Part shown: positions 17,062 to 34,806 of the stretch, in pieces
How the letters are laid out: each line of letters begins with the position of its first letter
How positions within the stretch are numbered: the first letter of the stretch is position 1
Origin: Clostridia bacterium
Lineage (GTDB): Bacteria; Bacillota; Clostridia; Oscillospirales; CAG-272
Direction: 5' to 3'
NCBI GenBank assembly: GCA_017456145.1
Contig: JAFTJZ010000033.1
Location: forward strand, 1-34,806
DNA length: 34,806 nucleotides
The notes under the pieces: model-generated
Told to the model about the DNA's origin: nothing
Seen by the model: the letters and a program-made list of their open reading frames with translations, nothing else
Database searches by the model: none
Made by a program: the position numbers and the translations under genes

Positions 17062-18334
17062 CGAAATGGATACCCGCCCCACGGTGGCCGTGATCGGCGG
17101 TGGTGCGGCGGGGATGATGGCGGCGTATCACGCGGCGCAAATGGGCGTACGGGTGCTTATGCTGGAAGGTACGGGGAAACTCGGGCGCAAGCTGCGGATC
17201 ACGGGCAAGGGGCGCTGCAACGTCACCAATGACTGTGATACGCAGGAATTTCTGAACAACGTGCGAACCAATCCGCGTTTTCTGTATGCGGCGCTGGATC
17301 GCTTTTCTCCGGCGGACACCAAGGCGTTTTTTGAGGCGCGCGGTGTGCCGCTGAAAACCGAGCGGGGCAGACGGGTCTTTCCCGTCTCGGACAAGGCAGG
17401 GGATATTGTCGGCGCGCTTGCCGATGCTTGCCACCGTGCGGGCGTTGAGGTGGTGTATGAGCGAGCACGGTCGCTGTGGCTCGAAAATGACGTTCTGCGG
17501 GGCGTTTGCGCCGACGGGGGCAACTATGCCGCCAATGCCGTGATCGTTTGTACAGGAGGAAAATCTTACCCTCTGACGGGGTCTGACGGCGGTGGCTACG
17601 ACTTGGCAAGGCAGGCGGGGCATACCATCGTGGATCCCAAGCCTTCCCTGGTGCCCATGACGGTCAAGGGAGATGTCTGTCCCTTGCTGCAAGGGCTGTC
17701 GCTCAAGAACGTGGGGCTCAAGGTGATCGACACGAAAAGCGGCAAGACAGTCTACGAGGACTTTGGTGAGATGATGTTCACTCACTTTGGTATTACGGGG
17801 CCGATGGTGCTCTCGGCGTCCTCGCATCTGCACGATCTTTCGGCGGGGAGATATACCGCGCGGATTGATCTCAAGCCTGCGCTGGACGAAAAAACGCTGG
17901 ACGCGCGCATTCTGTCGGATTTTGAAAAATATCGCAATAAGGATTTTATCCATGCACTGGACGATCTGCTGCCCAAAAAGCTAATCCCCGTCATCATTCG
18001 CGAGAGCGGTATTGATGAGCGATGCAAGGTCAACACCATCACCAAGGAGCAGAGAAGGGCACTTCTGACGTTGCTCAAGGGCTTTGAGCTGCCGCTGCAC
18101 GGCTTTCGCCCCATTGACGAGGCGATCGTCACGGCGGGCGGCGTAAGCGTCAAGGAGATCAATCCCAAGACCATGGAGTCCAAGCTGCTGCGCGGGCTGT
18201 ATTTTGCCGGTGAGGTCATCGACGTGGACGCCTATACGGGCGGCTATAATTTGCAGATTGCCTTCTCGACGGCGGTTCTTGCCGGGGAGAGCGCGGCGAT
18301 GGAGGTTGCCTCCGGCGGGTCAGAACCTTTTTGA
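17054..18334 (+). CDS. HI0933/BaiN-type NAD(P)/FAD-dependent flavoprotein (426 aa)
   Basis: The Rossmann FAD motif IGGGAAGMMAA is at residues 14-24. The family motifs KLGRKLRITGKGRCNVTN, CTGGKSYPLTGSDG, THFGITGP and GLYFAGEVIDVDAYTGGYN are all present. Length matches the family. These proteins are common flavin oxidoreductases of unclear physiological role; one relative (BaiN) acts in bile-acid dehydroxylation, but most are unassigned. The start at 17054 follows GGAGGAG at 17041. A hairpin overlaps the stop codon. It is the usual neighbour of cmk-plsC-ispH in Clostridia. Confidence 0.9.
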   Translation: MPDEMDTRPTVAVIGGGAAGMMAAYHAAQMGVRVLMLEGTGKLGRKLRITGKGRCNVTNDCDTQEFLNNVRTNPRFLYAALDRFSPADTKAFFEARGVPLKTERGRRVFPVSDKAGDIVGALADACHRAGVEVVYERARSLWLENDVLRGVCADGGNYAANAVIVCTGGKSYPLTGSDGGGYDLARQAGHTIVDPKPSLVPMTVKGDVCPLLQGLSLKNVGLKVIDTKSGKTVYEDFGEMMFTHFGITGPMVLSASSHLHDLSAGRYTARIDLKPALDEKTLDARILSDFEKYRNKDFIHALDDLLPKKLIPVIIRESGIDERCKVNTITKEQRRALLTLLKGFELPLHGFRPIDEAIVTAGGVSVKEINPKTMESKLLRGLYFAGEVIDVDAYTGGYNLQIAFSTAVLAGESAAMEVASGGSEPF

Positions 18335-22240: not shown

Positions 22241-22327
22241 GCGGGTTTGGCGGAATTGGCAGACGCGTAAGATTCAGGTTCTTATGATCGCAAGATTGTG
22301 GAGGTTCAAGTCCTCTAACCCGCACCA
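22241..22327 (+). tRNA. tRNA-Leu, anticodon CAG
   Basis: The acceptor stem is GCGGGTT (22241-22247) with AACCCGC (22317-22323), then A and an encoded CCA. The D arm is GGCGGAATTGGCAGACGC. The anticodon stem is TAAGA/TCTTA with loop TTCAGGT, giving anticodon CAG at 22275-22277. A long variable arm and a GGTTCAAGTC T-loop complete a class II tRNA, 87 bases with CCA. It reads CUG codons. It marks the left border of the AT-rich island. Confidence 0.95.
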
Positions 22328-22334
22328 AAGCAAT

Positions 22335-22379
22335 ATAATCCGAACCAGATCTTCCCTGTGGGAGACGGGTTCGGATTAT
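22335..22379 (+). terminator. Terminator of tRNA-Leu
   Basis: ATAATCCGAACC (22335-22346) pairs perfectly with GGTTCGGATTAT (22368-22379), followed by T-rich sequence. Confidence 0.85.
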
Positions 22380-22387
22380 TTGTTTAT

Positions 22388-22480
22388 TTCGAGAAGTTTG
22401 AGGACACTCACTTCAAGAACGGCATACTCAAACGTCCGAACTCCAAACCAAGAGGACCGAGAAAGAAGAAACGATCTTGA
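22388..22480 (+). pseudogene. C-terminal coding remnant at the left end of the island
   Basis: In one frame this reads FEKFEDTHFKNGILKRPNS and then KPRGPRKKKRS, ending in TGA at 22478. The strongly basic, protein-like ending lacks any start and runs back into the tRNA terminator. It is best explained as the last part of a gene cut off at the tRNA-proximal junction. The family is not recognised. Confidence 0.35.
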
Positions 22481-22497
22481 TTATGGAGGATTTGATT

Positions 22498-22743
22498 ATG
22501 AGAAAACTTATCAGTTGTGAATTTAACTTCGATACCGTATGTGTGGAGATGAAGTTCTCTGACGGCAGTATGATTTCCATTGATACAATTGCCGTAGAGA
22601 ACGAGATTGCCGACAATATGTATCAGCGGTCGGAGCTGGACTATCTGATCTACAATGACCCAGTAGCGTATGCCGAGCTGATACTGAGCGGCGATCCGGA
22701 AACCTATTTGAAAACCGTAACCGAATACAAGCCATTGGACTAA
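22498..22743 (+). CDS. DUF6061-family small protein (81 aa)
   Basis: I recognise the pattern CEFNFDTVCVEMKFSDGS, then the Asn-Met-Tyr-Gln-Arg-Ser-Glu-Leu-Asp-Tyr block and an ending LKTVTEYKPLD. These mark a small acidic protein family carried by mobilizable elements of gut Clostridia. Its function is unknown. The start at 22498 has GGAGGA seven bases upstream. It is the first intact gene of the island, supporting a mobile-element origin. Confidence 0.8.
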   Translation: MRKLISCEFNFDTVCVEMKFSDGSMISIDTIAVENEIADNMYQRSELDYLIYNDPVAYAELILSGDPETYLKTVTEYKPLD

Positions 22744-22945
22744 TCACCACATACGGCTTTTCCGTATCTGGTTTTGCCATATATGGTAAAACCACGTCTG
22801 GAAACTCCCGCACAAATAAATAAATATAGATAAAAGAATTACTAATATAAAGAATTACTGACTAATATTCTTTTCTATTCCGATGAATGAAATGAATCGA
22901 AATAAAAAAAGGAGCACATGGTCTGATTTTTGAAAAAGCTATTTC

Positions 22946-23019
22946 TGCTATATTCCGGTGCAGATATAGCAAGTTAGCGCCGCCACAAGGAGCGTTTGTT
23001 CCATGTGGCGGGTTAACTT
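22946..23019. other. oriT-like pair of inverted repeats
   Basis: TGCTATAT/ATATAGCA (22946-22953, 22964-22971) is followed by CCGCCACA/TGTGGCGG (22980-22987, 23004-23011). The second hairpin is nested inside AAGTTA/TAACTT (22971-22976, 23014-23019). Adjacent hairpins of this kind are typical of transfer origins near mobilization genes in Firmicutes, and I have seen similar sequences beside MobA/MobL genes. No relaxase gene is in the window. The gap 22744-23080 otherwise holds only AT-rich sequence with the repeated word AAAGAATTACT (two copies, about 22833-22860). Confidence 0.45.
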
Positions 23020-23080
23020 ATGCCGAAATATAGAAATGGCTCAGAGAGCGTTTACCGCCCTCCGAGCCATATTTGTATTG

Positions 23081-23275
23081 TTAAACGGACTTGCCGCTAT
23101 TGTTGTCTTTGGATGTCTTGAGCTTTTCTTGTTCTGCTTTCCATTCTGCGAACTCTCGCTGCCCCTCTTCGCTTTGATAGTAAGCCATAATGTCGGGAAG
23201 AAGTCGACGAGCGATGCTTTCGATTGTATGCTGTGGAATGTTGGTGTTATTGATGAGTTTTTTACGTCTACCCAA
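23081..23275 (-). CDS. Small mobile-element protein of unknown function (64 aa)
   Basis: The protein begins GRRKKLINNTNIPQHTIES and ends with a Lys/Glu-rich tail. It belongs to a small family seen beside mobilization modules in gut Clostridia; its role is unknown. TTG at 23275 is the likely start because AAGGAGG lies just upstream. The same frame continues upstream through coding-like sequence (TFKFNHQHTKEELL) to a TAA at 23318 and then back to ATG codons at 23347 and 23350. A longer ancestral protein may therefore have been cut by a nonsense codon. A consensus promoter lies at 23443-23471. Confidence 0.6.
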   Translation of the reverse strand: MGRRKKLINNTNIPQHTIESIARRLLPDIMAYYQSEEGQREFAEWKAEQEKLKTSKDNNSGKSV

Positions 23276-23442
23276 GAGTTCCTCCTTCGTATGCTGGTGG
23301 TTGAATTTGAAGGTGTCTTAGGTGTCTTTGGCGTTTGTGTTCGGCATCATTCCTTTCGTTTTTTGTATGAAAAAAGCAGACCCTGTGTCAAGCAAGAGCT
23401 TGTATAGGTGTCTGCGTGTCTTAGACGTCTTTGTTCATTTAC

Positions 23443-23471
23443 ATTATAACAAAAAAGATGCGTTTTGTCAA
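23443..23471 (-). promoter_or_regulatory. Sigma-A promoter for the small minus-strand gene
   Basis: On the minus strand TTGACA (23471-23466), a 17-base spacer, then TATAAT (23448-23443). The leader of about 160 bases contains three copies of AGACACCT (plus-strand AGGTGTCT at 23311, 23320 and 23406). Confidence 0.8.
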
Positions 23472-23565
23472 GATTTTGCAGGCATATCATTCATTAGAAT
23501 TGGTGACTTTTTAATTATAAACTTCGAGAAGTCGAAACTATTTTGTGAATTATCAGACGATATTA

Positions 23566-23594
23566 TTGTAAATTCGACATTTTTGTGCTATAAT
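23566..23594 (+). promoter_or_regulatory. Sigma-A promoter for the HTH-902 aa-HATPase unit
   Basis: TTGTAA (23566-23571), a 17-base spacer, and TATAAT (23589-23594), 54 bases before the HTH start codon. No other promoter or terminator is obvious before 26657, so it probably drives the three genes together. Confidence 0.7.
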
Positions 23595-23648
23595 ACAATT
23601 ATGAATATGTGCAATCACGCTTCAAGACTATAAATCAGAGGTGTTTAC

Positions 23649-23861
23649 ATGAAAATCAGCTACAAAAAACTCTGGGTAATGCTTATCCAAAGAGACATCA
23701 CTAAGGTAACGTTAAGAAAAGAATTAGGCATATCGACAAGTACAATGAGCAAGCTCAATAAAGGTGAAGAAGTTGCCCTATCTGTACTTCTGCGTATTTG
23801 CGATTATCTTGATTGCGATATCGGAGATATTTGCGAAGCAGTTCGGGGTGATACCAAATAA
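23649..23861 (+). CDS. Small Cro/CI-type HTH regulator of the island (70 aa)
   Basis: This is a single HTH_26-type domain: ITKVTLRKELGISTSTMSK with the following helix, then a typical ending (LRICDYLDCDIGDICEAV). It has AGAGGTG as a ribosome binding site. It stands first in the transcript that continues with the 902-residue protein and the HATPase-nuclease. A small repressor at the head of a defence-type operon often limits toxic expression until infection; that role here is inferred from position. Confidence 0.85.
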   Translation: MKISYKKLWVMLIQRDITKVTLRKELGISTSTMSKLNKGEEVALSVLLRICDYLDCDIGDICEAVRGDTK

Positions 23862-23900
23862 CGGTGAGCTAATGATTTCAAACGTGAAAGGATTAACTTT

Positions 23901-26609
23901 ATGATAAACACATTACAGGAAATTCAAGACAGATTTGACAAAATAAAAGATCATAAACCCAAGGCGACAAAAAAGTTAAGCGAATTGGGCGATATTCTTG
24001 CGTCCGCATACAATATTTCCCCTGAAGTTGCGGATGAAATGTGGCAATACATTATTGACCTTAATGTTTCTGAGGATATTACAAATTCGGATTTTTATAT
24101 TGCTCAGGTATTCAACAAACTAATTTCGCATTTGTCTGTATCCAGTTTAACTGACTTTGTTTCCATGAATCCCGAAAGAGTATATAATCTGATAGTATAC
24201 GGATATAATGGGGCAAAAACTTGGAATGCAAGACTTTGGGAGTGCTTAGAAATTCTTATTCCCGGATATATCGAAATGAATCGGATTGATGAGGCTGCCC
24301 TATGTATTAACTGGTTTTATGAAAGATTCGGCGGGATATGGTCTGATAGAAAAGAAATATATAGAGTAGCTCGTAGAGTGACGAATACCTGTGTTAAATA
24401 TTATATAAACAATGACAACTACGTAGATGAAGCAGAAAGTTTATTAAAAATAATTGGTCAGACTGAAAATTCGGAAGTTAATGCTATTGTAGAAATCACA
24501 AAAATTATCTCATCCTCAGATGTATGTGAAGACTATGATATGTTGTTCTATCTTACAAGAAAATGTAAAGAGCCGGTTGAGTTTTTTGACTTGCTTTGGG
24601 AATCTCGTAAGCATTTTACTATAGATGAACTTAGGGCAAAATGGATTGAGTATGTGTCCGAATGCGATGATCAAGATATAAGACCTTGGAACTACATACA
24701 CGATAACGAAAAACTGAAATTCTATGTTGATTTGGAAAAAGATGAAGATGAATTATTGGATTATTATTTCAACAGAGCAAAGTTATACGATGTTGAAAGA
24801 GGTATCGTATATTCTTGGGTCGAAAATGGAGACTGGGAGAGATTCATCAAATATATTTCACAAAGCATTATTTCAACGCGCGAATCATCAATTGACTTAA
24901 CATTAAAGAACTTATTAGCGAATCTTAAAAGTGCTTGTTATTCTGCCAATAATAGACATGTTGCCAACGAATACCGATACGGTGATATTACAATCGATAA
25001 AAATAAAATAGAATCCTTTTCAATGTCCTTGGTGAAAATATCTGCTATAACGCTTGGTTGTGAATGCCATAATGATTATCACACCTTGATAAAAGAGTTT
25101 GTTATAAAAATTAACAAAAATGCTTTTAAGGAGATAGGCTATCCCGAAGAAACTGAACAGAAAAGCAATAAAAGTTCTCAAGACCCGGAAAAACAGTTAA
25201 AAAACTATGTTAATAATTTTCTTGCAAGTGGAGAAACGTTACACAAAAAGTGTGATATGCACGATAATATCATTGAACAATTACAACTTCATGATTATTC
25301 TCCCAAAGCTACAAACAAAGCGTATAGGTTGGCACATGATAATGTAGTTGCAGAATTCTATTTTTCGTATGCAATAGGAGAAAATGAAATTAGAAAAACA
25401 TTAATATCTTCGTGTGTTAAGAAAAACGACTTGGAACATGCCTTGAAATTAGTAGATATGATGATATCTACTAAGGATAAGACTAATTATAGAGGGACTG
25501 CGGGATGGGGGCATCAAAATGCACTCACAATAATTCATTTGATTCGGGAATACGATTATTCTTTAAAGGGAAGCAATCGAGCATCCGAAATCAATGATGA
25601 AAAAAGACAACTGATTAAACAACTTGTAGGACGAATTACTCCATATTTGCCTGAAAAATCGCAACAAAAAGTCAAGGATGAAATATATAGAATAACACCC
25701 ATAGAAGATTCGTTTGATGCATACGTTGCGAATTTGTTAGAAAATGTCGATATTTACACTGGAGAAATCAGTTCTAAAAAAAGTGTAAACGTTAATACAT
25801 TATCGAATCAACTTGAAAAAAATTTTTCTAAATTCGCGTCAAAGGATAGGTATGATATCATATATCATATTATGATGAAACTCGCAAAAAATGAAAAAGA
25901 AAATAATTCAATAAAATATCCTATGTGGATGTGGCGGTTAATTAGGGGTGTTAGCGAAAAAGATTTAATGAAGTTGTTTAAGAGTTATCCCGAAATGTTT
26001 ATTGCATGGGTTGAGCACCCATCAGTAAAAGATTCTGATATACGAGAGATAGCAGAGATCTTTGGAGGCTCTTGTAGTAAGGACGATTTCTTTGCATTCA
26101 GAAATTTGGTTCTTAATCACAAAGGGTTCATAGATGGCGTTGATAATTGTTTTAAGCGAACATCTAAAAATACTGAAACACAGGTTCTTTTTGACGGAAC
26201 AAATGCACTTATAGAATTGGATTATCTTGAAGTATATGGTTATTGTCCAAGAGCCAGTTTTAATCCAATCTGCAATGTTGTTTTTCACTTTCTGACTATG
26301 CAGAAATCCAAAAAACTAAATTCAGTGAGAGTCGTATCTTGTAAGGTTAACGGCTTGGATGTGAATAGTATGGGATTTGTCTGTGGTTTTGATGACGGTG
26401 GTCCATCAGTTGGTTATGAACTTTATGAGAGGAAAAGCAAAGATGAATTGACTATTTACGGTGATTTCTTTGATAATAAGCAGATAACTCATATAAGCAA
26501 AATTGAATTAGCTTTGGTTTTAATGGATGAAAACAAAAAAGTACTCGATGCTCCGCCTACAATTATCATTGAATATGATATTTATGCAGGGGATTACAAA
26601 GTAGTTTGA
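23901..26609 (+). CDS. Large helical protein of unknown function, partner of the HATPase-nuclease (902 aa)
   Basis: No known domain is recognised. Residues 1 to about 770 are dominated by amphipathic helices (for example EVADEMWQYIIDLNVSED, LKSACYSANNRHVANEY) with an alpha-solenoid look. The last about 120 residues turn to beta-strand patterns (VRVVSCKVNGLDV, GPSVGYELYERK, TIIIEYDIYAGDYKVV), suggesting a C-terminal beta-sandwich. There is no signal peptide, membrane segment, Walker motif or clear nuclease motif. The start ATG follows GAAAGGA. It lies 39 bases after the HTH gene and 47 bases before the ATPase-nuclease gene. It has very low GC content compared with the backbone. It may sense or scaffold in a two-component defence system; this is inference. 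Confidence 0.7.
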   Translation: MINTLQEIQDRFDKIKDHKPKATKKLSELGDILASAYNISPEVADEMWQYIIDLNVSEDITNSDFYIAQVFNKLISHLSVSSLTDFVSMNPERVYNLIVYGYNGAKTWNARLWECLEILIPGYIEMNRIDEAALCINWFYERFGGIWSDRKEIYRVARRVTNTCVKYYINNDNYVDEAESLLKIIGQTENSEVNAIVEITKIISSSDVCEDYDMLFYLTRKCKEPVEFFDLLWESRKHFTIDELRAKWIEYVSECDDQDIRPWNYIHDNEKLKFYVDLEKDEDELLDYYFNRAKLYDVERGIVYSWVENGDWERFIKYISQSIISTRESSIDLTLKNLLANLKSACYSANNRHVANEYRYGDITIDKNKIESFSMSLVKISAITLGCECHNDYHTLIKEFVIKINKNAFKEIGYPEETEQKSNKSSQDPEKQLKNYVNNFLASGETLHKKCDMHDNIIEQLQLHDYSPKATNKAYRLAHDNVVAEFYFSYAIGENEIRKTLISSCVKKNDLEHALKLVDMMISTKDKTNYRGTAGWGHQNALTIIHLIREYDYSLKGSNRASEINDEKRQLIKQLVGRITPYLPEKSQQKVKDEIYRITPIEDSFDAYVANLLENVDIYTGEISSKKSVNVNTLSNQLEKNFSKFASKDRYDIIYHIMMKLAKNEKENNSIKYPMWMWRLIRGVSEKDLMKLFKSYPEMFIAWVEHPSVKDSDIREIAEIFGGSCSKDDFFAFRNLVLNHKGFIDGVDNCFKRTSKNTETQVLFDGTNALIELDYLEVYGYCPRASFNPICNVVFHFLTMQKSKKLNSVRVVSCKVNGLDVNSMGFVCGFDDGGPSVGYELYERKSKDELTIYGDFFDNKQITHISKIELALVLMDENKKVLDAPPTIIIEYDIYAGDYKVV

Positions 26610-26656
26610 TGTATTGCTTGAAGGCAATCTAGATATTACGAAAGGTAGGATATAAA

Positions 26657-29077
26657 TTGAATAATACAATTTTAAGCATATCAAATTCGTTTATGCAAGA
26701 AGCATTTTCTTCGCCCAGAATGTTGGAAGATCTTGCAGCGATGGAAAAATACATGTCAGAAAGTTATGACGGAAGAACTTTTGTTGAACTCTTGCAAAAT
26801 GCTGATGATGCTCAGTCCAATAGAGTAAAGGTTTTTCTTGTTGGTGATACTTTAGTTGTAGCTAATGACGGTAGACCGTTTAACGAGAATGATATAATGG
26901 CGATTTGTCGTTCCGGTGCCAGCAGTAAGCAAAGAGGTAACAATATCGGTTATCGTGGCGTTGGATTTAAAAGTGCAACAACAATCTCTACAGAGATCAT
27001 CATTCATTCGGCAGATGTGTATTTTACATTTTCAAAGTCCATATGCGCAAAAAGATTAAATAAGAGCGATACCCAAGTACCGACTGTACGAATTCCATTT
27101 TTGATTGATAAAAATGAACTTGGCGAAGATGTCAATTTATCTATTGAGAATTGCAAAAAAGAAGGATTTACTACCTTTTTCGTGTTCAATAGAGCAAAAG
27201 TAGCAAAGTTTTTAAATGAACTAAATGGTTTTGATTCGGGATGGTTATTGTTCTTGAGAAATATCGGTGAGGTTGAAATTTCTTGCGGTACATTCAAAAA
27301 GACATGCTCCATAAATAGAAAAAACATATCCGATACAGATGTGTTGTTGAGTGTAGTCGGAAGCAAAGACCAGTGGTATCTTGTTTCCCAAGATGGAGTT
27401 TCAATTGCATTTAAGTACGATACCGTTAAAGGCATTATTCCCTGTGGAGCAGACGAAGCAGTGTTCCATTGTTTCTTACCGACAATTGACAAGACAGGAT
27501 TTCCATTCAAAGCCAATGCCGATTTTTCTACCGATCCGTCACGAAAGCATATTATCCAAGATGAAAGTACAAATAGTGCTATTCTTAGTATCCAAAAACT
27601 CTACGCAGATGTTGTTAAACGAATAACGGCAAATGATGAAGAAAAGATGTATGCAGTTTTATCGTTGTTAAATACACATACAACGCTTAACTCATTGGTT
27701 ACACGGTTTGAAAATGGAGTGTTGGATGAATTGCGATCATCTTCATGGACACCCTTAAATAATAACCAGTTTGTTAAGCCCAATAATGCAAAAATATTCC
27801 CAAAGTGGTTAGATGCAGAAGAAAGAAGTGTAATTTGTAAAAACACAAAATCTTTTTCATCACACCTAATTCTGCCAACGTTGTTTGAAAAAACAGATCG
27901 TTTGGAAGTATTGTTTGGAAAACTTGGAACATCAGAACTGACACCTCGAGAATTATCTGAAATCCTTACAAATATTGATAATGCTCAAAACATGCCGATA
28001 TCACTTTTAGGAAAGATATTTGTCTATTGTTATAGAGCAATGGGTGTAGATGAACGTGCGGTTAGAAAATTCTTCGTTCCATTAACTAATGGTTATTTAA
28101 CCATAGCAGACACGACCGCTGATACCGAATTACATAAAGATTTTATATCTGTTTTGAAATCTCTCTTAAATGCTAAGGAAGCAGAAAATTTAGCAATAAC
28201 ATATGAGGTGTTTTCAAAACTTCAGAAGAAAAAGGAGATTCCTGTTAAGAAAGCGACGTCTGATATATTACCCAAAGGCGCATCTGCTACTCAAATGGCA
28301 ATCAATAAATGGAAAACTCCTATTCAAAACTGCATTACAGTTGAAACGCTTAATGGTAATACCGCGAAAGATGTTAGCAAAAAAAGTGAGGGATATACTA
28401 TTATCAGTACCACCCCTTCAGGAGATATTTCGTATATTGCTGTAAAACAAGTAGGTGTATTGGGTGACTCTTTTAAATTGACCGAAAGTGAATATAGTGC
28501 CGCACAAAAATACGGACAAGCGTATAAGGTATACTTGTTTACGACCGATACGAGCAATATCAAGTATGATATAATTACAAACCCGATAGATACTGTTAGT
28601 ATGAAAAAAGTAGTAAGAGAGTGGGAGTGGATTTGTAATTGTCATTCAGAACTTGGAGATTCTCAAGACATCGTTGAAAGTGTTGTCGATACATTTGAGA
28701 ATCCTAATATAGACACAGTAGATTTCGATGTTATGGATGGTGAGGAATTTGAGAGATTCTGCGCACGACTTTTGATGAACAGTGGCTACGAAGATGTTTC
28801 ATTAACCAAGGGATCGGGCGACCAAGGAATTGATATTATTGCTTATCGCGATGGTATAAAATATGGAATTCAATGCAAGTGCTATTCATCGGATATTGGC
28901 AATGCGGCTGTTCAAGAAGTTTTTGCCGGAAAGACTTTCTATAAATGCAACATCGGTATTGTTTTGACAAATCGGCATTTCTCGCCTTCTGCAATACAGC
29001 TCGCAGAAACAAATGGCATCATTCTTTGGGGACGTGAAACGTTATTAAAACTTATTAAAACATCCAAATCAAATTAA
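26657..29077 (+). CDS. Sacsin/Hsp90-like ATPase fused to an Mrr-type restriction nuclease (806 aa)
   Basis: The N-terminus is a GHKL ATPase of the sacsin-like type. It has ELLQNADDA (Glu44, Asn48), the ATP-binding DGRPF (71-75) and the lid GYRGVGFKS (98-106). About 550 residues without a recognised fold follow. The C-terminus (about 693-800) is a PD-(D/E)xK nuclease of the Mrr_cat type, with the EEFERF helix, GSGDQGID (719-726, Asp726) and QCKC (Gln739, Lys741). The family cuts DNA, often modified or foreign DNA. The start codon is TTG at 26657 after GGTAGGA; an ATG twelve codons later has no site. It is probably an effector in phage defence together with the 902-residue protein. Confidence 0.85.
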   Translation: MNNTILSISNSFMQEAFSSPRMLEDLAAMEKYMSESYDGRTFVELLQNADDAQSNRVKVFLVGDTLVVANDGRPFNENDIMAICRSGASSKQRGNNIGYRGVGFKSATTISTEIIIHSADVYFTFSKSICAKRLNKSDTQVPTVRIPFLIDKNELGEDVNLSIENCKKEGFTTFFVFNRAKVAKFLNELNGFDSGWLLFLRNIGEVEISCGTFKKTCSINRKNISDTDVLLSVVGSKDQWYLVSQDGVSIAFKYDTVKGIIPCGADEAVFHCFLPTIDKTGFPFKANADFSTDPSRKHIIQDESTNSAILSIQKLYADVVKRITANDEEKMYAVLSLLNTHTTLNSLVTRFENGVLDELRSSSWTPLNNNQFVKPNNAKIFPKWLDAEERSVICKNTKSFSSHLILPTLFEKTDRLEVLFGKLGTSELTPRELSEILTNIDNAQNMPISLLGKIFVYCYRAMGVDERAVRKFFVPLTNGYLTIADTTADTELHKDFISVLKSLLNAKEAENLAITYEVFSKLQKKKEIPVKKATSDILPKGASATQMAINKWKTPIQNCITVETLNGNTAKDVSKKSEGYTIISTTPSGDISYIAVKQVGVLGDSFKLTESEYSAAQKYGQAYKVYLFTTDTSNIKYDIITNPIDTVSMKKVVREWEWICNCHSELGDSQDIVESVVDTFENPNIDTVDFDVMDGEEFERFCARLLMNSGYEDVSLTKGSGDQGIDIIAYRDGIKYGIQCKCYSSDIGNAAVQEVFAGKTFYKCNIGIVLTNRHFSPSAIQLAETNGIILWGRETLLKLIKTSKSN

Positions 29078-29097
29078 CACGAATTGGGGATAAAGTT

Positions 29098-29241
29098 ATG
29101 CCAGACTTAAATGATTTTCATGCTTTCAAGAGCACAAGTTCCAGGGGCAATAGTAGCAACGGCGGATGCTTGGGCGGTGGTTTCACTTGGATTGTTATAA
29201 TCATAGTTGTTCTGTGGCTAATAGGAAAAATCTTTGGCTGA
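29098..29241 (+). CDS. Short membrane peptide (47 aa)
   Basis: ATG at 29098 follows GGGGAT and ends with TGA at 29239. It reads MPDLNDFHAFKSTSSR, then a Gly/Ser/Asn-rich stretch, then one membrane helix WIVIIIVVLWLIGKIFG. The design (soluble head, Gly linker, C-terminal helix) recurs in small clostridial proteins of unknown function. It starts 20 bases after the nuclease gene and is likely translated from the same transcript. It could be a membrane-acting effector or an anchor for the upstream proteins; neither is shown. Confidence 0.6.
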   Translation: MPDLNDFHAFKSTSSRGNSSNGGCLGGGFTWIVIIIVVLWLIGKIFG

Positions 29242-29248
29242 GCATAGT

Positions 29249-29414
29249 TGCTAAAAGTTAGCATGGGATGTAGCAAGCAATGCTCGACGATAGCCATTTT
29301 GCTTATCTCTCTCAAGTGATCGCATCATGCGCAGAGAGAAAATTACAAAAGCGTCGAGCGCTTGCTAACTCATAGTTGGAGTCAGCAAGCTGGGCATGGC
29401 GGTACCCACCATGC
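29249..29414 (+). ncRNA. Structured intergenic region with alternative pairings, before the AAA-TOPRIM gene
   Basis: Between 29242 and 29520 there is no gene but dense inverted repeats. These are TGCTAA/TTAGCA (29249-29263), AGCAAGC plus GCTCGACG (29272-29289) with CGTCGAGC plus GCTTGCT (29352-29366), an inner TCTCTC/GAGAGA, and GCATGG/CCATGC (29394-29414). GCTTGCT at 29360-29366 can pair instead with AGCAAGC at 29384-29390. The two folds exclude each other, as in attenuators. Whether it is an RNA leader, an independent RNA or a mobile border is unknown. Confidence 0.4.
29384..29409 (-). repeat. Conserved non-coding unit, inverted copy left of the AAA-TOPRIM gene
   Basis: Read on the minus strand this 26-base unit begins GTGGGTACC and ends GCTTGCT. 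It matches 31320-31345 at 21 of 26 positions and 31262-31285 more weakly. The copies flank the gene at 29521 in opposite orientation. Confidence 0.6.
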
Positions 29415-29520
29415 GAAATGACTTGTTGAGGAAACATCCCCAATCCCCTTTAACAGAGAATACTTCTCTGGCTATGCACACGATGGTGTGCTGATAAGTA
29501 CAAAATTCCAGGAGGTAATT

Positions 29521-31146
29521 ATGTGTACTGAAAATGAAACTGCAGAGATGGCTATGGGACAAACGCCACAAGTCTTTATGCAGAACATTGCATTTAATGA
29601 TGGTACGGTTCTGCCTCTCACACCTAATAGCATCGTGGTCTTCACTGGTGCGAATAATAGCGGAAAGAGCCAAATATTAAGAGACGCAGAAAACTGTCTT
29701 AACAAATCCAATGAGAGTTTACAAATTGTATTAAAGAATTCTCTATATGATTTTCGTGGGAACATTTGTGATGAAGCTTTTTTAAAAGGTCATTTCATTA
29801 TAAACCAACAAGGACATTTCGAGTTAGTTGGTTCGGGTAATTCTTTTGACAAAAATGCTCTGAGCAACTGGTGGAGAGAGCGAACTTTATACAGTGATTT
29901 GCATTTATTATTTGTAAAACGTCTTAGTACAGAAATACGATTAACTGTATCCAATGCCTTGCAACGCGAAATTCAACCCGAAAGTCATCCGATTTACAAA
30001 CTGTATAAGAGCGAACAACTTGCTCAAGAAATCTCTGATTATTTTCATCAAGCCTTTGGTGTGGATTTGATTGTTAACCGTAACGAAATGCGAACTATTC
30101 CGTTACATGTGGGACAAGCGCCAGACAAAGAAGCTTATACAATCAAGTCACAAGATGAGTATTATGATCTGGTTTCCGCATTACCAAAATTACAGGACCA
30201 AGGCGATGGCATGCGGAGTTTTGCGAGTATACTTCTCGACACTTTTACATCAGAGCATTCCATCACATTGATTGATGAACCAGAAGCCTTTTTGCATCCA
30301 CCGCAGGCGAGAGTACTTGGAAAAATGCTTGCTAAAAACAATCCTAATAATCGACAGTTATTTATCTCTACTCATAGCGAAGATTTCTTACAAGGATTAC
30401 TTGATGCGGATAATGAAAATGTTACTGTTATCAGAATTAATCGAGTAGACAACATTAACAAAATGAGCATCTTGGCGAATTCCGAAATCAAAAAGCTATG
30501 GAGCACCCCTCTGCTTCGCTACTCCAATATACTCAGTGGTCTGTTCCATGAGAAGGTCGTTGTTTGTGAAAGTGACTATGATTGTTTGTTTTATCAAGCT
30601 GTAATGAACGCCGTGTATGAAAGTAAAGGTGAAATTGCACCTGATATACTCTTTACTCATTGTGGAGGTAAATCCCGAGCTAAAGATGTTGTTAATGCTT
30701 TGAGAGCGGTGAATGTTCCTGTAGTTGCAATCTGTGATTTTGACTTGTTAAATGCAAGCCAAAACTTCAATCCCCTAATTACTGCATTTGGTGAAAAGTG
30801 GAGTAATATATTATCAAATGGGATGCAAACCATCTACAATAATATGAATGCTAAAAACAGTAATGGAATTAATGCATGGGAACAGATTAAGAAGATCGGC
30901 AAGGCTGGATTTACCGGAGATGCCCCCGCTGCCTATGAAACAGTAGAATCCATGTGTAAAAAAGTTGGATTGTTTATAGTGCCTGTAGGAGAAATGGAAG
31001 GCTTTGATAAAACCATAAACAAAGAAAAGAAAGACTGGGTATATCATGTGTTGGCAACTTATGATTTGGTAGCAGAACCCAAACTGACTGAGGCTCGGAC
31101 ATTCGTACAAGCTGTTGTTGATTTTAAGATTCCCGAAGGTATCTAA
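29521..31146 (+). CDS. OLD/PARIS-like AAA ATPase-TOPRIM nuclease (541 aa)
   Basis: An ABC-type ATPase domain has Walker A GANNSGKS (43-50), Walker B LIDEPEAFLHP (Asp252, Glu253) and the switch THSEDF (284-289). A TOPRIM domain follows, with VVCESDYD (Glu350, Asp352), THCGGKSR and ICDFDLL (Asp406, Asp408). This is the plan of OLD-family nucleases and of fused AriA-AriB proteins of PARIS, both anti-phage ATPase-nucleases. The start at 29521 follows AGGAGGT. No UvrD-like helicase (Gabija) or reverse transcriptase (retron) is adjacent, so it seems to work alone or with the small neighbours. A terminator follows at 31397. Confidence 0.85.
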   Translation: MCTENETAEMAMGQTPQVFMQNIAFNDGTVLPLTPNSIVVFTGANNSGKSQILRDAENCLNKSNESLQIVLKNSLYDFRGNICDEAFLKGHFIINQQGHFELVGSGNSFDKNALSNWWRERTLYSDLHLLFVKRLSTEIRLTVSNALQREIQPESHPIYKLYKSEQLAQEISDYFHQAFGVDLIVNRNEMRTIPLHVGQAPDKEAYTIKSQDEYYDLVSALPKLQDQGDGMRSFASILLDTFTSEHSITLIDEPEAFLHPPQARVLGKMLAKNNPNNRQLFISTHSEDFLQGLLDADNENVTVIRINRVDNINKMSILANSEIKKLWSTPLLRYSNILSGLFHEKVVVCESDYDCLFYQAVMNAVYESKGEIAPDILFTHCGGKSRAKDVVNALRAVNVPVVAICDFDLLNASQNFNPLITAFGEKWSNILSNGMQTIYNNMNAKNSNGINAWEQIKKIGKAGFTGDAPAAYETVESMCKKVGLFIVPVGEMEGFDKTINKEKKDWVYHVLATYDLVAEPKLTEARTFVQAVVDFKIPEGI

Positions 31147-31261
31147 TAACAAAGATGTTTGTGTGATGTATTTTAGCTTCAAAGAAGCGTAGCCAATTTC
31201 TCTGAAATTGTTAAAGGGTTCGGGATGTTGCCCGACAAGGAAATCGCAGATTTCGCATTGA

Positions 31262-31353
31262 GGGTACCTCGGTGCATTGCTTGCCAAGTATGATTCATCA
31301 TCTTGAGCAAAAATGCGACGTGGGTCCCTTCATGCCCTGCTTGCCAAGTATGA
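31262..31353 (+). repeat. Two tandem copies of the conserved non-coding unit right of the AAA-TOPRIM gene
   Basis: The exact 15-base word GCTTGCCAAGTATGA occurs at 31279-31293 and 31339-31353, 60 bases apart. Each is preceded by a related block (GGGTACC at 31262, GGGTCCC at 31322). A related unit lies inverted at 29384-29409. The gap 31147-31474 has no convincing gene on either strand. Confidence 0.7.
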
Positions 31354-31396
31354 AATCGTCTGATAGATAAATTCGAGTAGTTCTCAAAATGAACAC

Positions 31397-31428
31397 AGGC
31401 AGGAAGGTCTTGATGCACTTTCCTGCCT
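31397..31428 (+). terminator. Intrinsic terminator after the AAA-TOPRIM gene region
   Basis: AGGCAGGAA (31397-31405) pairs with TTCCTGCCT (31420-31428), followed by TATTAT. Confidence 0.7.
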
Positions 31429-31474
31429 TATTATCGTATAACTTGTAACTTGCTTTTGTATTGGAGGTGGAAAT

Positions 31475-31942
31475 ATGAGTTTTAATATCAGCGAATTAAC
31501 AGAAGTAGAAAAAAGAGAAATTATGACATGGACAGGAAATAGCGCTGATAACGGAGAGGCTATCAATCAAAGTCTAAGAACGGGGCATGAACTAACCAAA
31601 GATCAATTTGTTAGATTTTCCATAGTTAAGCAAGCAATACAGAAATCGAAGACGACAGAGGAAATAACTCTATATCGAGTCTGGGGAAGAAATAATCCTC
31701 ATTCACCCTACAAAAGGAAGAAAGAAATAATTGATTACGGAATTATGGAAGCATCTCTTACGAATGATATTGTCAATGTATTTTCTCAGCGTAAGTTTTT
31801 TATGATAATTCGTGTGCCTAAAGGAACACGGTGTCTGCCGGTAATGTGGGTTAACGGTCGTGACTTTGAGCAGGGTGTGCTGTTTTTACCGAATACTCGT
31901 CTATTAGTCGAGAAAATACAGAGAAATCCATTTAAGCAATAA
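31475..31942 (+). CDS. ADP-ribosyltransferase-like protein with incomplete active site (155 aa)
   Basis: The C-terminal 95 residues follow the arginine-specific ADP-ribosyltransferase pattern. They show LYRVWGR (the R of R-S-E, near residue 69), a helix NDIVNVF, the strand MIIRVPKGTR, and FEQGVLFLPNTRLLV in place of the usual E-x-E-VLLP. The second Glu of the E-x-E pair appears to be Gly, and the S-T-S strand reads EASLT, so activity is doubtful or altered. The first 60 residues are a helical lead-in as in many toxin ARTs. The start follows GGAGGTGG. It stands alone between a terminator and the XRE promoter. Confidence 0.55.
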   Translation: MSFNISELTEVEKREIMTWTGNSADNGEAINQSLRTGHELTKDQFVRFSIVKQAIQKSKTTEEITLYRVWGRNNPHSPYKRKKEIIDYGIMEASLTNDIVNVFSQRKFFMIIRVPKGTRCLPVMWVNGRDFEQGVLFLPNTRLLVEKIQRNPFKQ

Positions 31943-32017
31943 ATTAAAGTATATTGCTCGGTCGTGAGTGGTGACTAACTTATTTGTAAACATTCTCGGA
32001 ATTATGCTTGTTTGCTA

Positions 32018-32046
32018 TTGAATGTTATCGCATTTTGATGTATAAT
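32018..32046 (+). promoter_or_regulatory. Sigma-A promoter for the XRE-recombinase trio
   Basis: TTGAAT (32018-32023), a 17-base spacer, and TATAAT (32041-32046), just before the ribosome binding site GGAGGTGA. Confidence 0.7.
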
Positions 32047-32070
32047 AAAATCAAGGATGGAGGTGAGATA

Positions 32071-32454
32071 TTGGAAGTTATAAGCAAGCGATTGAAACAA
32101 CTTCGTGAAGATGCAGGGTTGTCTCAAAGTAAGATAGGGAAGTTAGTTGGCGTTCCTCAATCCAGTATCTATCGCTATGAACAAGGTCAATCAACACCAT
32201 CCCCAAAAACATTCCGTTGGTATGCAGACTATTTTGATGTTTCCCTTGATTATCTCTTTGGAAGAACCGACGATCCACACGGGACTCACTATGAATATAA
32301 ACCCAAATACGAAACGCTTAATCCCGAAATGGGCAAGTTCGTGGAGATGTGCTTCGAACCAGGTTCACCAATAAATGAAAGATTAAAAGAAACCTTGACA
32401 CAGATGTTGAACTCGGGTGAGTTCACAGAGAAAACGGAAAAGGAGTCAAAATGA
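32071..32454 (+). CDS. XRE-family regulator of the mobile element (127 aa)
   Basis: An N-terminal HTH_3 domain (LKQLREDAGLSQSKIGKLV, SSIYRYEQGQSTP, ending DVSLDYLFGRTDD) is followed by a helical C-terminal region that may dimerise. TTG at 32071 is chosen because GGAGGTGA (32059-32066) is correctly spaced. The longer in-frame reading from 32008 starts upstream of the promoter's -10 box. Its last codons overlap the next gene by four bases (ATGA), so expression of the next two genes is coupled to it. It is probably the element's own repressor or switch. Confidence 0.85.
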   Translation: MEVISKRLKQLREDAGLSQSKIGKLVGVPQSSIYRYEQGQSTPSPKTFRWYADYFDVSLDYLFGRTDDPHGTHYEYKPKYETLNPEMGKFVEMCFEPGSPINERLKETLTQMLNSGEFTEKTEKESK

Positions 32455-33194
32455 ATTTTGAGGAATTTGGCAAAATAATTAAAAGTGATGAGACAAAAAA
32501 TATTGGGAAAGAGTTAATTGATAATACTATAGGTGCTCTAAGTGCTGATCCTGTTGCTTGCAAAAATTTAGTGCAATATATTATCAAATTGCCAATCTCG
32601 TTGAGAGAACAATTCTTTTGGAATAAGTTTTATCGTTTTCTTAATGGCGTTTATGTTCCATATGACAAGAGCATCGCACTAAGCCACAAACTGTTTGGTG
32701 ACGAAAAAAACAAGCGAAAGAATGCGATGCGAATCGTTGAAGTTATTGGAAAAATCGAAACCGAAGACAGTCTGCAATTCGTGATTAATGCGACAAGAAA
32801 CGTGTTACTAAATTTAATTAGTACGACTGATTACTTCCGAATCATAAAAGCTATTGCAGATACTTTACTTGAAGATTTGCTATTCTTATCCGATAACATT
32901 ACTAAGGGTGGACAGTTTAGGGGTAATACACAAGTACTCGCTTTAGAACGCTCTGGTTTGATGATAATGGCTGGAATCGACGCTAACGAAGATGTGGAAT
33001 CTCAAAATTATGTGTTTACCTCATTCGGAAGAATGGTAGACCAATATGCATTATCATTGGAAGATGACGAGCGTTACAAATGGCATAATAAAGCACAAAA
33101 AACGGGAACATTATTCGATACTGGAATAGAAGAAATTAGCAACGAAGAAATCCAAGATATGGTTAATAAAGTTATGAAAGAGGGTGAAACATGA
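32451..33194 (+). CDS. Unknown helical protein between regulator and recombinase (247 aa)
   Basis: No family is recognised. The protein is soluble and helix-rich (NLVQYIIKLPISLREQFFW, NKFYRFLNGVYVPYD) and has an acidic C-terminus (TGIEEISNEEIQDMVNKV). It overlaps the XRE gene and the recombinase gene by four bases on each side (ATGA both times), so it is made in step with both. Possible roles are a recombination directionality factor or immunity/stability protein, but its size is larger than most such factors. Function open. Confidence 0.6.
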   Translation: MNFEEFGKIIKSDETKNIGKELIDNTIGALSADPVACKNLVQYIIKLPISLREQFFWNKFYRFLNGVYVPYDKSIALSHKLFGDEKNKRKNAMRIVEVIGKIETEDSLQFVINATRNVLLNLISTTDYFRIIKAIADTLLEDLLFLSDNITKGGQFRGNTQVLALERSGLMIMAGIDANEDVESQNYVFTSFGRMVDQYALSLEDDERYKWHNKAQKTGTLFDTGIEEISNEEIQDMVNKVMKEGET

Positions 33195-34777
33195 AAGCTG
33201 TAATTTACGCTCGTTATTCTTCCGATAGCCAACGTGAAGAATCCATCGAAGGTCAAATCCGTGAATGTACTGCCTTTGCAGAAAAGAACGGCATCACGGT
33301 TCTGCGCCACTATATCGACAGAGCTTTTTCCGCTAAGACAGGCAACCGTCCCGAATTCCAGAATATGATTAAAGACAGCGGTAAGAAGCTGTTTGACACG
33401 GTCATCGTTTGGAAACTCGACCGCTTTGCACGTAACCGTTATGACAGCGCAAGGCATAAGGCAACACTGAAGAAAAATGGCGTAAAGGTCGTGTCTGCTA
33501 CCGAAGCGATTGCTGATGGTTCTGTTGGTATTATGATGGAGACCATTCTGGAAGGCATGGCAGAATATTATTCGGTTGACCTCTCTGAAAAGGTTGTTCG
33601 TGGCATGACCGACAATGCCTTAAAATGTATGTTCAACGGCGGAACATTGCCGATTGGATATATCATCGATAAGGAACAGCACTTTCAGATTGACCCCGTT
33701 ACCTCGCCTTTTGTTCTTGCAGCCTTTGAGAAATATGCCGATGGTGCAACGATGACGGAAGTTCGTGATTATCTCAACGAAAACGGCGTTACCAACACCA
33801 GAGGCAAGCCGATGACCTACAATAGCGTTCAGCATTTGCTGAATAATCGTCGATACATCGGTGAGTATGTTTACAGAGAAATCGTTGTTCCAGATGGAAT
33901 ACCTGCTATTGTTCCTATCGATCTGTTTGAACGAGTACAGGAAAAGATGGCGAAAAATAAGAAAGCCCCTGCACGACACAAAGCAGAGGACGACTACTTA
34001 CTGACCACCAAACTGTTCTGCGGTCATTGCGGAGCTTATATGTGCGGCGAAAGCGGTACAAGCAGAACCGGTGTGGTTCACCACTATTACAAGTGCGTAT
34101 CCGTCAAGAAGAAACGTGCTGAATGCCACAAGAAGCCCGTCAAGAAACGCTGGATCGAAGATTTGGTCGTTGCAGAAGCCATGAAGATGGTTATGGATGA
34201 CGATGTTGTAGATGCCATCGTTTCCATGCTGATGGACTTGCAAGGGCGTGAAAACACCAATTTGCCTCTGTATCAGCAACAATTGAGAGAGACAGAGACC
34301 AAGATAGAAAACCTCTTAAAAGCCATTACAGAGGGTGTCTTCACAAAATCTACGAAGACACTCCTTGAAGAATTGGAAGCAGCCAAAGAGGAGCTTGAGA
34401 ATCGCATTTCTCTTGAAAAACTGGAGAAGCCGCAAATCAGCGAAGAATTTATGCGCTTTTGGCTCCATCGCTTCCGCAAGCTGGATATGGCAAAGAAAGA
34501 ACATCGTCAGATGTTGATTGATGTGTTCATCAATGCGATTTTTCTATACGATGACAAGATGCTCATCACCTTCAACTACAAAGAGGGTACCAAAACCATT
34601 ACTTTTGATGATGTAAAAAATGAGGTCTCAGAGGAGACTTCCGGTTCGAATTTGGATTGTTCAAGTGCACCAAGAAAAAGCGACAAAATTCGACAGAATT
34701 TTGTCGCTTTTTCAACTAAATCCGTCATTGAGGACGGGATAAATCCAACTACGTTGGGTGAAATCGCCTCGCAATGA
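33191..34777 (+). CDS. Large serine recombinase (528 aa)
   Basis: The resolvase domain has the catalytic Ser10 in YARYSSDSQ, KLDRFARNR (Arg78, Arg81) and EGMAEYYSVDLSEKV. The recombinase domain (about 155-265) includes GGTLPIGYI and NNRRYIGEYVYRE. The zinc ribbon begins CGHCG (Cys277, Cys280). A coiled coil at about 355-410 is followed by a C-terminal domain. Such enzymes integrate and excise mobile elements. The start ATG overlaps the previous stop. GC content is higher than in the defence genes. The last about 30 codons contain a perfect terminator hairpin, so the tail probably reads through the element end. Confidence 0.93.
   Translation: MKAVIYARYSSDSQREESIEGQIRECTAFAEKNGITVLRHYIDRAFSAKTGNRPEFQNMIKDSGKKLFDTVIVWKLDRFARNRYDSARHKATLKKNGVKVVSATEAIADGSVGIMMETILEGMAEYYSVDLSEKVVRGMTDNALKCMFNGGTLPIGYIIDKEQHFQIDPVTSPFVLAAFEKYADGATMTEVRDYLNENGVTNTRGKPMTYNSVQHLLNNRRYIGEYVYREIVVPDGIPAIVPIDLFERVQEKMAKNKKAPARHKAEDDYLLTTKLFCGHCGAYMCGESGTSRTGVVHHYYKCVSVKKKRAECHKKPVKKRWIEDLVVAEAMKMVMDDDVVDAIVSMLMDLQGRENTNLPLYQQQLRETETKIENLLKAITEGVFTKSTKTLLEELEAAKEELENRISLEKLEKPQISEEFMRFWLHRFRKLDMAKKEHRQMLIDVFINAIFLYDDKMLITFNYKEGTKTITFDDVKNEVSEETSGSNLDCSSAPRKSDKIRQNFVAFSTKSVIEDGINPTTLGEIASQ
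34675..34712. terminator. Perfect 17-bp terminator hairpin inside the recombinase 3' end
   Basis: AAAAAGCGACAAAATTC (34675-34691) pairs perfectly with its complement (34696-34712) around GACA, with A and T tracts on both sides, so it works in both directions. It lies 65 bases before the annotated stop. Confidence 0.85.
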
Positions 34778-34806
34778 AATCCCGCTTTCGCGGGGTGAGA
34801 GGACGG
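34713..34806. repeat. Row of short hairpins at the right edge of the window
   Basis: CCGTC/GACGG (34722-34737), CCAAC/GTTGG (34745-34757) and CCCGC/GCGGG (34781-34794) follow each other. The word GAGGACGG occurs at 34730-34737 and again at 34799-34806, 69 bases later. The window ends there, so a repeat unit of about 69 bases may begin. No gene is seen after 34777. Confidence 0.4.

Follow-up and report, generated by a model that had tools for sequence, protein, structure and literature searches.

A candidate two-gene defence module pairing a sacsin-type GHKL ATPase–nuclease with a predicted helical repeat protein in a Clostridia bacterium

The window analysed here, a 34,806-nt stretch of contig JAFTJZ010000033.1 from a Clostridia bacterium (assembly GCA_017456145.1), carries four closely spaced genes on its forward strand, two of which are large: one encodes a 902-amino-acid (aa) protein, P0002, and the other an 806-aa protein, P0003, in which a GHKL ATPase is joined to a nuclease domain. 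The original prediction was that all four genes form an undescribed defence operon, which raises the questions of which of them constitute a unit and what this unit may do. The core consists of two genes, not four, and it is considered rather probable that P0002 and P0003 represent a two-gene defence module directed against phage or other foreign DNA, in which the partner protein would sense or license and an ATP-gated GHKL dimer would control a swappable nuclease. The four genes are the following.

23649–23861, forward strand: helix-turn-helix (HTH) gene, 70 aa
23901–26609, forward strand: 902-aa gene (P0002)
26657–29077, forward strand: 806-aa gene (P0003), TTG start
29098–29241, forward strand: 47-aa peptide gene, one hydrophobic stretch

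The positions of these open reading frames (ORFs) bear out the predicted layout, with all four on the same strand and separated by gaps of 39, 47 and 20 bases.

Conservation of the two large genes as a pair

Pattern scans using P0002 or P0003 as single proteins found nothing. A match on a Planococcus plasmid (33% identity over 82% of P0003) provided a two-row alignment (A1), and a scan of genome contigs with this alignment returned 11 loci, from Lachnospiraceae, other Clostridia and Bacillota metagenome-assembled genomes (MAGs), Bacillus haikouensis, Macrococcoides, a Prevotella MAG and a Chloroflexi MAG; the same scan of viral contigs gave five weak, partial ATPase matches only. Later searches with hidden Markov models (HMMs) added a second copy in the Chloroflexi genome (L043), L044 and a truncated locus (L042), the last of which was dropped from the counts. 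The 15 members, including the window, comprise class A (the window, L011, L012 and L013), class B (L002 and L014–L021) and the two others, L043 and L044.

Since these loci were chosen by their ATPase only, the neighbouring genes provide a fair test of pairing. A homologous partner lies adjacent to the ATPase gene, on the same strand, in all 12 loci first collected (class A, 3/3; class B, 9/9), and the predicted conservation of the two large genes as a unit still holds when L043 and L044 are added, with a partner in 12 of 14 relatives (13/15 with the window). In L011–L013 a full-length homologue of P0002 is located directly upstream of the ATPase, with E-values of 6e-153 or better (1.5e-218 in L013, 1.5e-188 in L011 and 6.1e-153 in L012); all three full-length homologues found thus adjoin the ATPase, although they were found through it. 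For class B, a leave-one-out HMM ranked the partner as the top ORF of its own locus in 9/9 cases (E ≤ 6e-7). The partner is split into two frames in L020, is present twice in L018 and follows the ATPase in L014 and L015, and in 11 of 13 loci the gap between the paired genes falls between −11 and 27 bases, against 47 bases in the window and 250 bases in L017. No full-length P0002 homologue away from the ATPase was detected in the samples searched (59 relatives, 291 class-level genomes, plasmids and viral contigs); a pattern scan of genome contigs with P0002 was too insensitive, missing even L011–L013. A 134-aa stand-alone ORF matching approximately 96 positions of the class A repeat-protein model (E = 4.5e-14) was observed in genome G144 (locus L056, 9825–10229, minus strand), about 1.6 kb from a McrC-like gene and the AAA partner of that gene.

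P0002 itself matches no PADLOC, Pfam or NCBIfam model apart from PPR repeats, for which NCBIfam gives 22.6 bits (cut-off 20) and Pfam a score under its cut-off. This weak match and the character of the sequence suggest a helical repeat, and P0002 is predicted to be a sensor or specificity subunit of this kind. Among the class B partners, no Pfam match was obtained for P0006 or for those of L014 and L017, and no PADLOC match for P0006 or that of L017. The partners vary considerably in size, from 902–1344 aa in class A to approximately 190–680 aa in class B. Those of L011, L012 and L013 were initially called at 1104, 1377 and 1138 aa, that of L012 being 1344 aa from the start used later, and past the end of the P0002 homology they contain, by eye, extra repeats with acidic linkers (two in L012, one in each of the others). 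The class B partner aligns along its length with residues 6–206 of the class A partner (hhalign E = 6.2e-5), and the trimmed profiles of the two classes score 34.7, a value to be compared with 30 reversed or shuffled controls, none of which exceeds 19.7; as judged from these profiles, the partners of the two classes are homologous. A weaker but concordant signal came from direct HMM searches, in which class B partners took the first three places among 405 ORFs with the class A model (E = 2.6e-5, 9.3e-4 and 0.096), and the partners of L011, L013 and L012 the first three among 322 ORFs with the class B model (E = 4.6e-5, 0.012 and 0.014).

Identity between the window and L011 is 76% in the GHKL region, 45% in the middle of the ATPase, 70% in the NOV_C domain and 78% in the Mrr end, and 32–50%, depending on the region, in the repeat protein. 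The faster evolution of the partner relative to the catalytic parts fits a role in recognition without proving it, and the middle of the ATPase is likewise fast-changing.

The two small genes, which had been predicted to belong to the operon as regulator and membrane accessory, do not share this conservation. Six-frame searching of the loci of all 14 relatives gave no homologue of either the 70-aa protein (best E = 0.36) or the 47-aa peptide (best E = 0.88), and the four-gene operon was therefore rejected as a conserved unit, so that only the part of the defence-operon reading concerning the two large genes is retained. The 70-aa protein is of the Cro/C1-type HTH family (Pfam HTH_26, E = 2.4e-20) and is a probable local regulator that is not conserved with the pair. 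The 47-aa peptide, which probably lies outside the core, has one relative among 59 genomes, in G032, where no pair is present within the 3.1 kb fetched. The single visible promoter of the original prediction corresponds to a site that does exist, although the region holds no more matches of this kind than chance would give (32 observed against 27.9 expected, standard deviation 5.2):

23566–23594, forward strand: weak promoter-like site upstream of the HTH gene, TTGTAA-17-TATAAT with TG

The ATPase family is rare. P0003 alone is a poor probe in this respect, because seven of its eight matches at 1e-20 among 291 class-level genomes cover only the Mrr end, the eighth being the window's own. Five of 398 phylum-level genomes match at 1e-20, and nearly the whole model is covered only in the window's own genome and in G450; in the family of L011, two of 397 genomes match at 1e-40, one of which is L011's own. 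With a class B ATPase as the query, no phage record was matched at 1e-10, and the Planococcus plasmid was the only plasmid matched at 1e-20. The family has been seen in Bacillota and in single MAG contigs labelled Prevotella and Chloroflexi.

Domains and differing effector ends of the ATPase

The TTG start assigned to P0003 agrees with its class A relatives, which start within a few residues of the same point. Three regions were delimited in the protein.

26663–27616, forward strand: GHKL ATPase and transducer-like region, residues ~3–320 (approximate boundaries)
28277–28642, forward strand: NOV_C/DUF3883 restriction-like domain, residues ~541–662 (PF13020 match at 562–634)
28727–29056, forward strand: Mrr_cat nuclease domain, residues 691–800 (PF04471, E = 4.1e-28)

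The predicted motifs were found at the residues claimed for them, namely E44, N48 and D51 (ELLQNADDA), G98, G101 and G103 (GYRGVGFKS), D726 (GSGDQGID) and K741 (QCKC). Reading the protein as a GHKL ATPase with an Mrr nuclease was correct as far as it went, but overlooked the NOV_C domain and its decay, as well as the match to TmtA described below. The GHKL region is of the sacsin type (Pfam SACS, E = 3.6e-10; NCBIfam sacsin N-terminal domain NF047352, E = 5.3e-22), and its six motif residues listed above are identical in 15/15 family members. The Mrr_cat domain retains D726 and Q739-x-K741, D and QxK being the catalytic residues of this domain. No solved structure is related by sequence at the limits applied (E ≤ 1 for A3, 0.01 for A2 and 0.001 for P0003), the single match for A3 (E = 0.31) being an antibody chain.

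By the usual restriction-fold motif, the D and E residues of the NOV_C domain are catalytic. In P0003 this domain is matched by Pfam with an E-value of 2.5e-6, and the pattern D...E-x-K is kept in 11/11 members outside class A. In all four class A proteins, D is replaced by T or S and E by A, while K is kept (T581, A595 and K597 in the window). DUF3883 has been described as a domain of the restriction-endonuclease type (PMC3710099). With L044 set as the outgroup, class A forms one clade with an ultrafast bootstrap of 100, divided into the window with L011 (support 96) and L012 with L013 (92); several class B nodes are weak (35–52).

The C-terminal ends of the ATPases differ along the same lines. 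Class B proteins, of approximately 670–695 aa compared with 806 aa in the window, stop after NOV_C, whereas the window and L011 continue into Mrr, and L012 and L013 end in a short, unrelated sequence that is 21% and 15% identical, respectively, to this part of the window protein. An Mrr domain is thus fused in 2/4 class A ATPases and in 0/9 class B ATPases of the alignment. The simplest reading would have the class A ancestor lose the two acidic residues of NOV_C once, and its descendants acquire different effector ends, presumably later.

A defence role and its rivals

The neighbourhoods of the pair were tallied from chosen neighbours, without a control set and excluding the window. Restriction or other defence-type genes stand beside the pair in 5/12 relatives (L012, L013, L014, L018 and L020). 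In L012 a BREX cluster encloses the pair, with PglZ on one side and BrxL on the other; the genes there are PglX, PglZ, the two genes of the pair, a 381-aa gene, BrxL and a leucine-rich repeat gene, then a 168-aa gene and genes for a protein kinase, a von Willebrand factor A (vWA) protein and a PP2C phosphatase. In the window, the scan of selected island proteins gave no PglX, PglZ or BrxL. L013 has vWA and PP2C genes upstream, and transglutaminase-like and MkoA/MkoC-like helicase genes downstream. L014 has a separate Mrr_cat gene downstream of the pair, L018 a DUF1016/YhcG nuclease neighbour, and L020 GmrSD and Schlafen-group helicase neighbours. Mobile contexts were found in L002, a plasmid, in L017, with a conjugative coupling protein, and in L015, with a recombinase. 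The vWA and PP2C genes, at 17111–20111 in L012 (with the protein kinase) and 4530–6125 in L013, accompany the two class A pairs without Mrr, and possibly constitute a phosphorylation-based control layer. The divergent ATPase of L044, without a repeat-protein partner, is close to a SMODS/Mab-21-type nucleotidyltransferase and HsdM.

GHKL proteins are dimers whose N-termini close upon ATP binding. P0003 may likewise form a GHKL dimer with clamp-like closure on ATP binding, the closed state releasing or positioning the C-terminal Mrr nuclease so that DNA would be cut. The 902-aa protein would bind the ATPase and either recognise a cue of infection or act as a restraint until such a cue arrives. 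NOV_C would be the ancestral blade, two acidic residues of which were lost in class A, the effector end being replaced, here by Mrr.

No described system matches the pair in PADLOC 2.0.0, NCBIfam, Pfam or the literature searched, from which most subscription papers and the DefenseFinder models were absent. The pair is probably an undescribed two-part variant of GHKL–nuclease defence, nearest to Tiamat in its ATPase. VcSduA (Shedu type I-D, paraMORC3-like) is a GHKL–PD-(D/E)xK fusion, modelled as a GHKL dimer with a clamp-like middle domain, and its anti-phage protection, which requires residues of both the ATPase and the nuclease, is lost on E27A or K557A (PMC12137116), a direct precedent for control of a nuclease by a GHKL ATPase. 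It resembles P0003 in its N-terminal GHKL ATPase and C-terminal restriction-fold nuclease, and the same ATP-control logic would be expected for P0003, which by analogy should need E44 and D726/K741. P0003 differs in being of the sacsin type and one of two genes, and plain Shedu membership was rejected because Pfam gives Mrr_cat and no DUF4263 (E ≤ 0.1). The Mrr end (residues 668–804) finds its best PADLOC match in ZorD of Zorya (E = 3.6e-20); however, the profile describes ZorD as a SWI2/SNF2 helicase, and no ZorA/B match was obtained among the island proteins scanned. PD-T4-1, which has a role in defence, has profiles matched by the class B NOV_C region (P0005, E = 1.6e-6; L018, E = 1.8e-9), but no GHKL region is matched.

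The ATPase could also be a short member of Tiamat, presumably a single-gene system, in which the GHKL/NOV protein works alone and its neighbour is incidental. Indeed, the best PADLOC match of P0003 is to TmtA, taken here to stand for Tiamat (PDLC03964, E = 1.5e-66, the sacsin-type GHKL half at residues 3–442), and the class B ATPases P0005 and that of L018 match the C-terminal, NOV_C-like end of the TmtA profile PDLC03969. The TmtA profiles, however, extend over 1063–1782 positions, of which the best P0003 stretch covers 11–468 of 1538; plain membership was rejected for an 806-aa protein matching only part of them. The adjacent repeat-protein partner in most relatives and, in class A, the lost NOV_C acidic residues and added Mrr or other end also set the family apart, making this explanation decidedly unlikely. 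Modification-dependent type IV restriction, in which Mrr would cut modified DNA and the GHKL protein and its partner would control access only, is possible but somewhat unlikely. The Mrr_cat domain with its D and QxK is shared with Mrr type IV enzymes, and the separate Mrr_cat gene downstream of the L014 pair speaks for the same reading; on the other hand, P0003 carries GHKL and NOV_C regions in front and has a partner gene, and, since so few of the ATPases are fused to Mrr, recognition of modified DNA by this domain is not a family property.

The closely spaced two-gene layout, with an HTH gene upstream in the window, would also suit a self-targeting, abortive or toxin–antitoxin-like module whose partner restrains a nuclease attacking the cell's own DNA, and other ATPase–nuclease systems, such as WonAB, abort infection (PMC12137116). 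Nothing in the present data tells self from foreign targets, and VcSduA, the nearest tested GHKL–nuclease, protects at all tested multiplicities (PMC12137116), so that this alternative is regarded as unlikely. A role outside defence, in which the protein would be a chaperone or stress protein of the Hsp90/sacsin kind that carries a DNA-processing domain, would account for the sacsin-type ATPase and for the GroEL-like gene that, by eye, adjoins L016, but sits poorly with the nuclease domains, the variable effector ends, the patchy distribution and the BREX, GmrSD, DUF1016, plasmid or mobile contexts, and is thought very improbable. The preferred two-gene defence module has difficulties of its own. 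Seven of the 12 relatives have no recognised defence gene among the neighbours looked at, and the ATPase proteins of L012 and L013 have no recognised nuclease. The ATPases of L043 and L044 lack a recognizable partner of the same family, the 805-aa ORF upstream in L043 having failed the leave-one-out HMM test and the 265-aa protein of L044 belonging to no Pfam family. Direct HMM searches connect the two partner classes weakly: in the class A search the partners of the six other class B loci fall lower, among unrelated ORFs, and in the class B search P0002 lies outside the top 12. The source MAG (2.92 Mb, 95.4% complete), of which the window is contig 36, is 7.5% contaminated. The data establish the genes, their domains, the conserved pairing, the lost acidic residues, the differing effector ends, a partner less conserved than the catalytic domains and, at some loci, defence genes nearby; that the two proteins form a complex gated by ATP, that DNA is what they attack, that the partner is the sensor and that phage are resisted is inferred.

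Extended to the whole family, the evidence is evenly poised for a broad but rare two-gene immune family with a constant core of helical adaptor and sacsin-type GHKL ATPase and an exchangeable effector; in one clade, the built-in nuclease would have lost its acidic residues, the adaptor become longer, and new effectors, either an Mrr fusion or genes of BREX or kinase–phosphatase clusters, taken over. If correct, this would add a recurring two-part architecture to the sacsin/GHKL–nuclease defences, with a partner family invisible to PADLOC 2.0.0, and would tie bacterial sacsin-like ATPases to a sensor–clamp–effector logic. The loss of acidic residues in the clade in which a second C-terminal end appears would represent a natural experiment on effector replacement, and the role of the ATPase in Tiamat-like proteins would become testable, since sensing and cutting would here reside on separate genes or domains.

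The surrounding low-GC island

The low GC content, serine recombinase and tRNA that had been pointed out beside the four genes are all present. GC content is 0.349 over the four genes and 0.378 for 22328–34806, compared with 0.529 for 1–22000, and a tRNA-Leu (22241–22327) immediately precedes the low-GC block; a second, milder dip (0.42–0.47) occurs at ~12.5–16 kb. The low-GC stretch is common to the four genes, an OLD-like ATPase–TOPRIM gene and the large serine recombinase (33191–34777), which has weak CcrB similarity (151 bits, far under the cut-off of 900) and is possibly the island's own integrase. At the window end, 34713–34785 matches the Gut-1 RNA with 44.3 bits against a gathering score of 50.

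The OLD-like gene (29488–31146) encodes an OLD/PARIS AriA-like ATPase with TOPRIM (PADLOC Old, E = 5.6e-23, and AriA, E = 1.9e-16; Pfam OLD-like_TOPRIM, E = 1.7e-6) and is perhaps a second, independent defence gene of the island. The intergenic stretch at 29236–29500 has strong structure (fold z −4.84), and a part of it, 29384–29455, was found again, whole or in parts, in 5 of 97 related genomes; as no OLD-like gene stands beside these recurrences in the 3 kb fetched, the stretch is perhaps an intergenic repeat. Further downstream, at 31475–31942, lies a gene for a 155-aa protein that matches an ADP-ribosyltransferase exoenzyme family (E = 4.5e-10).

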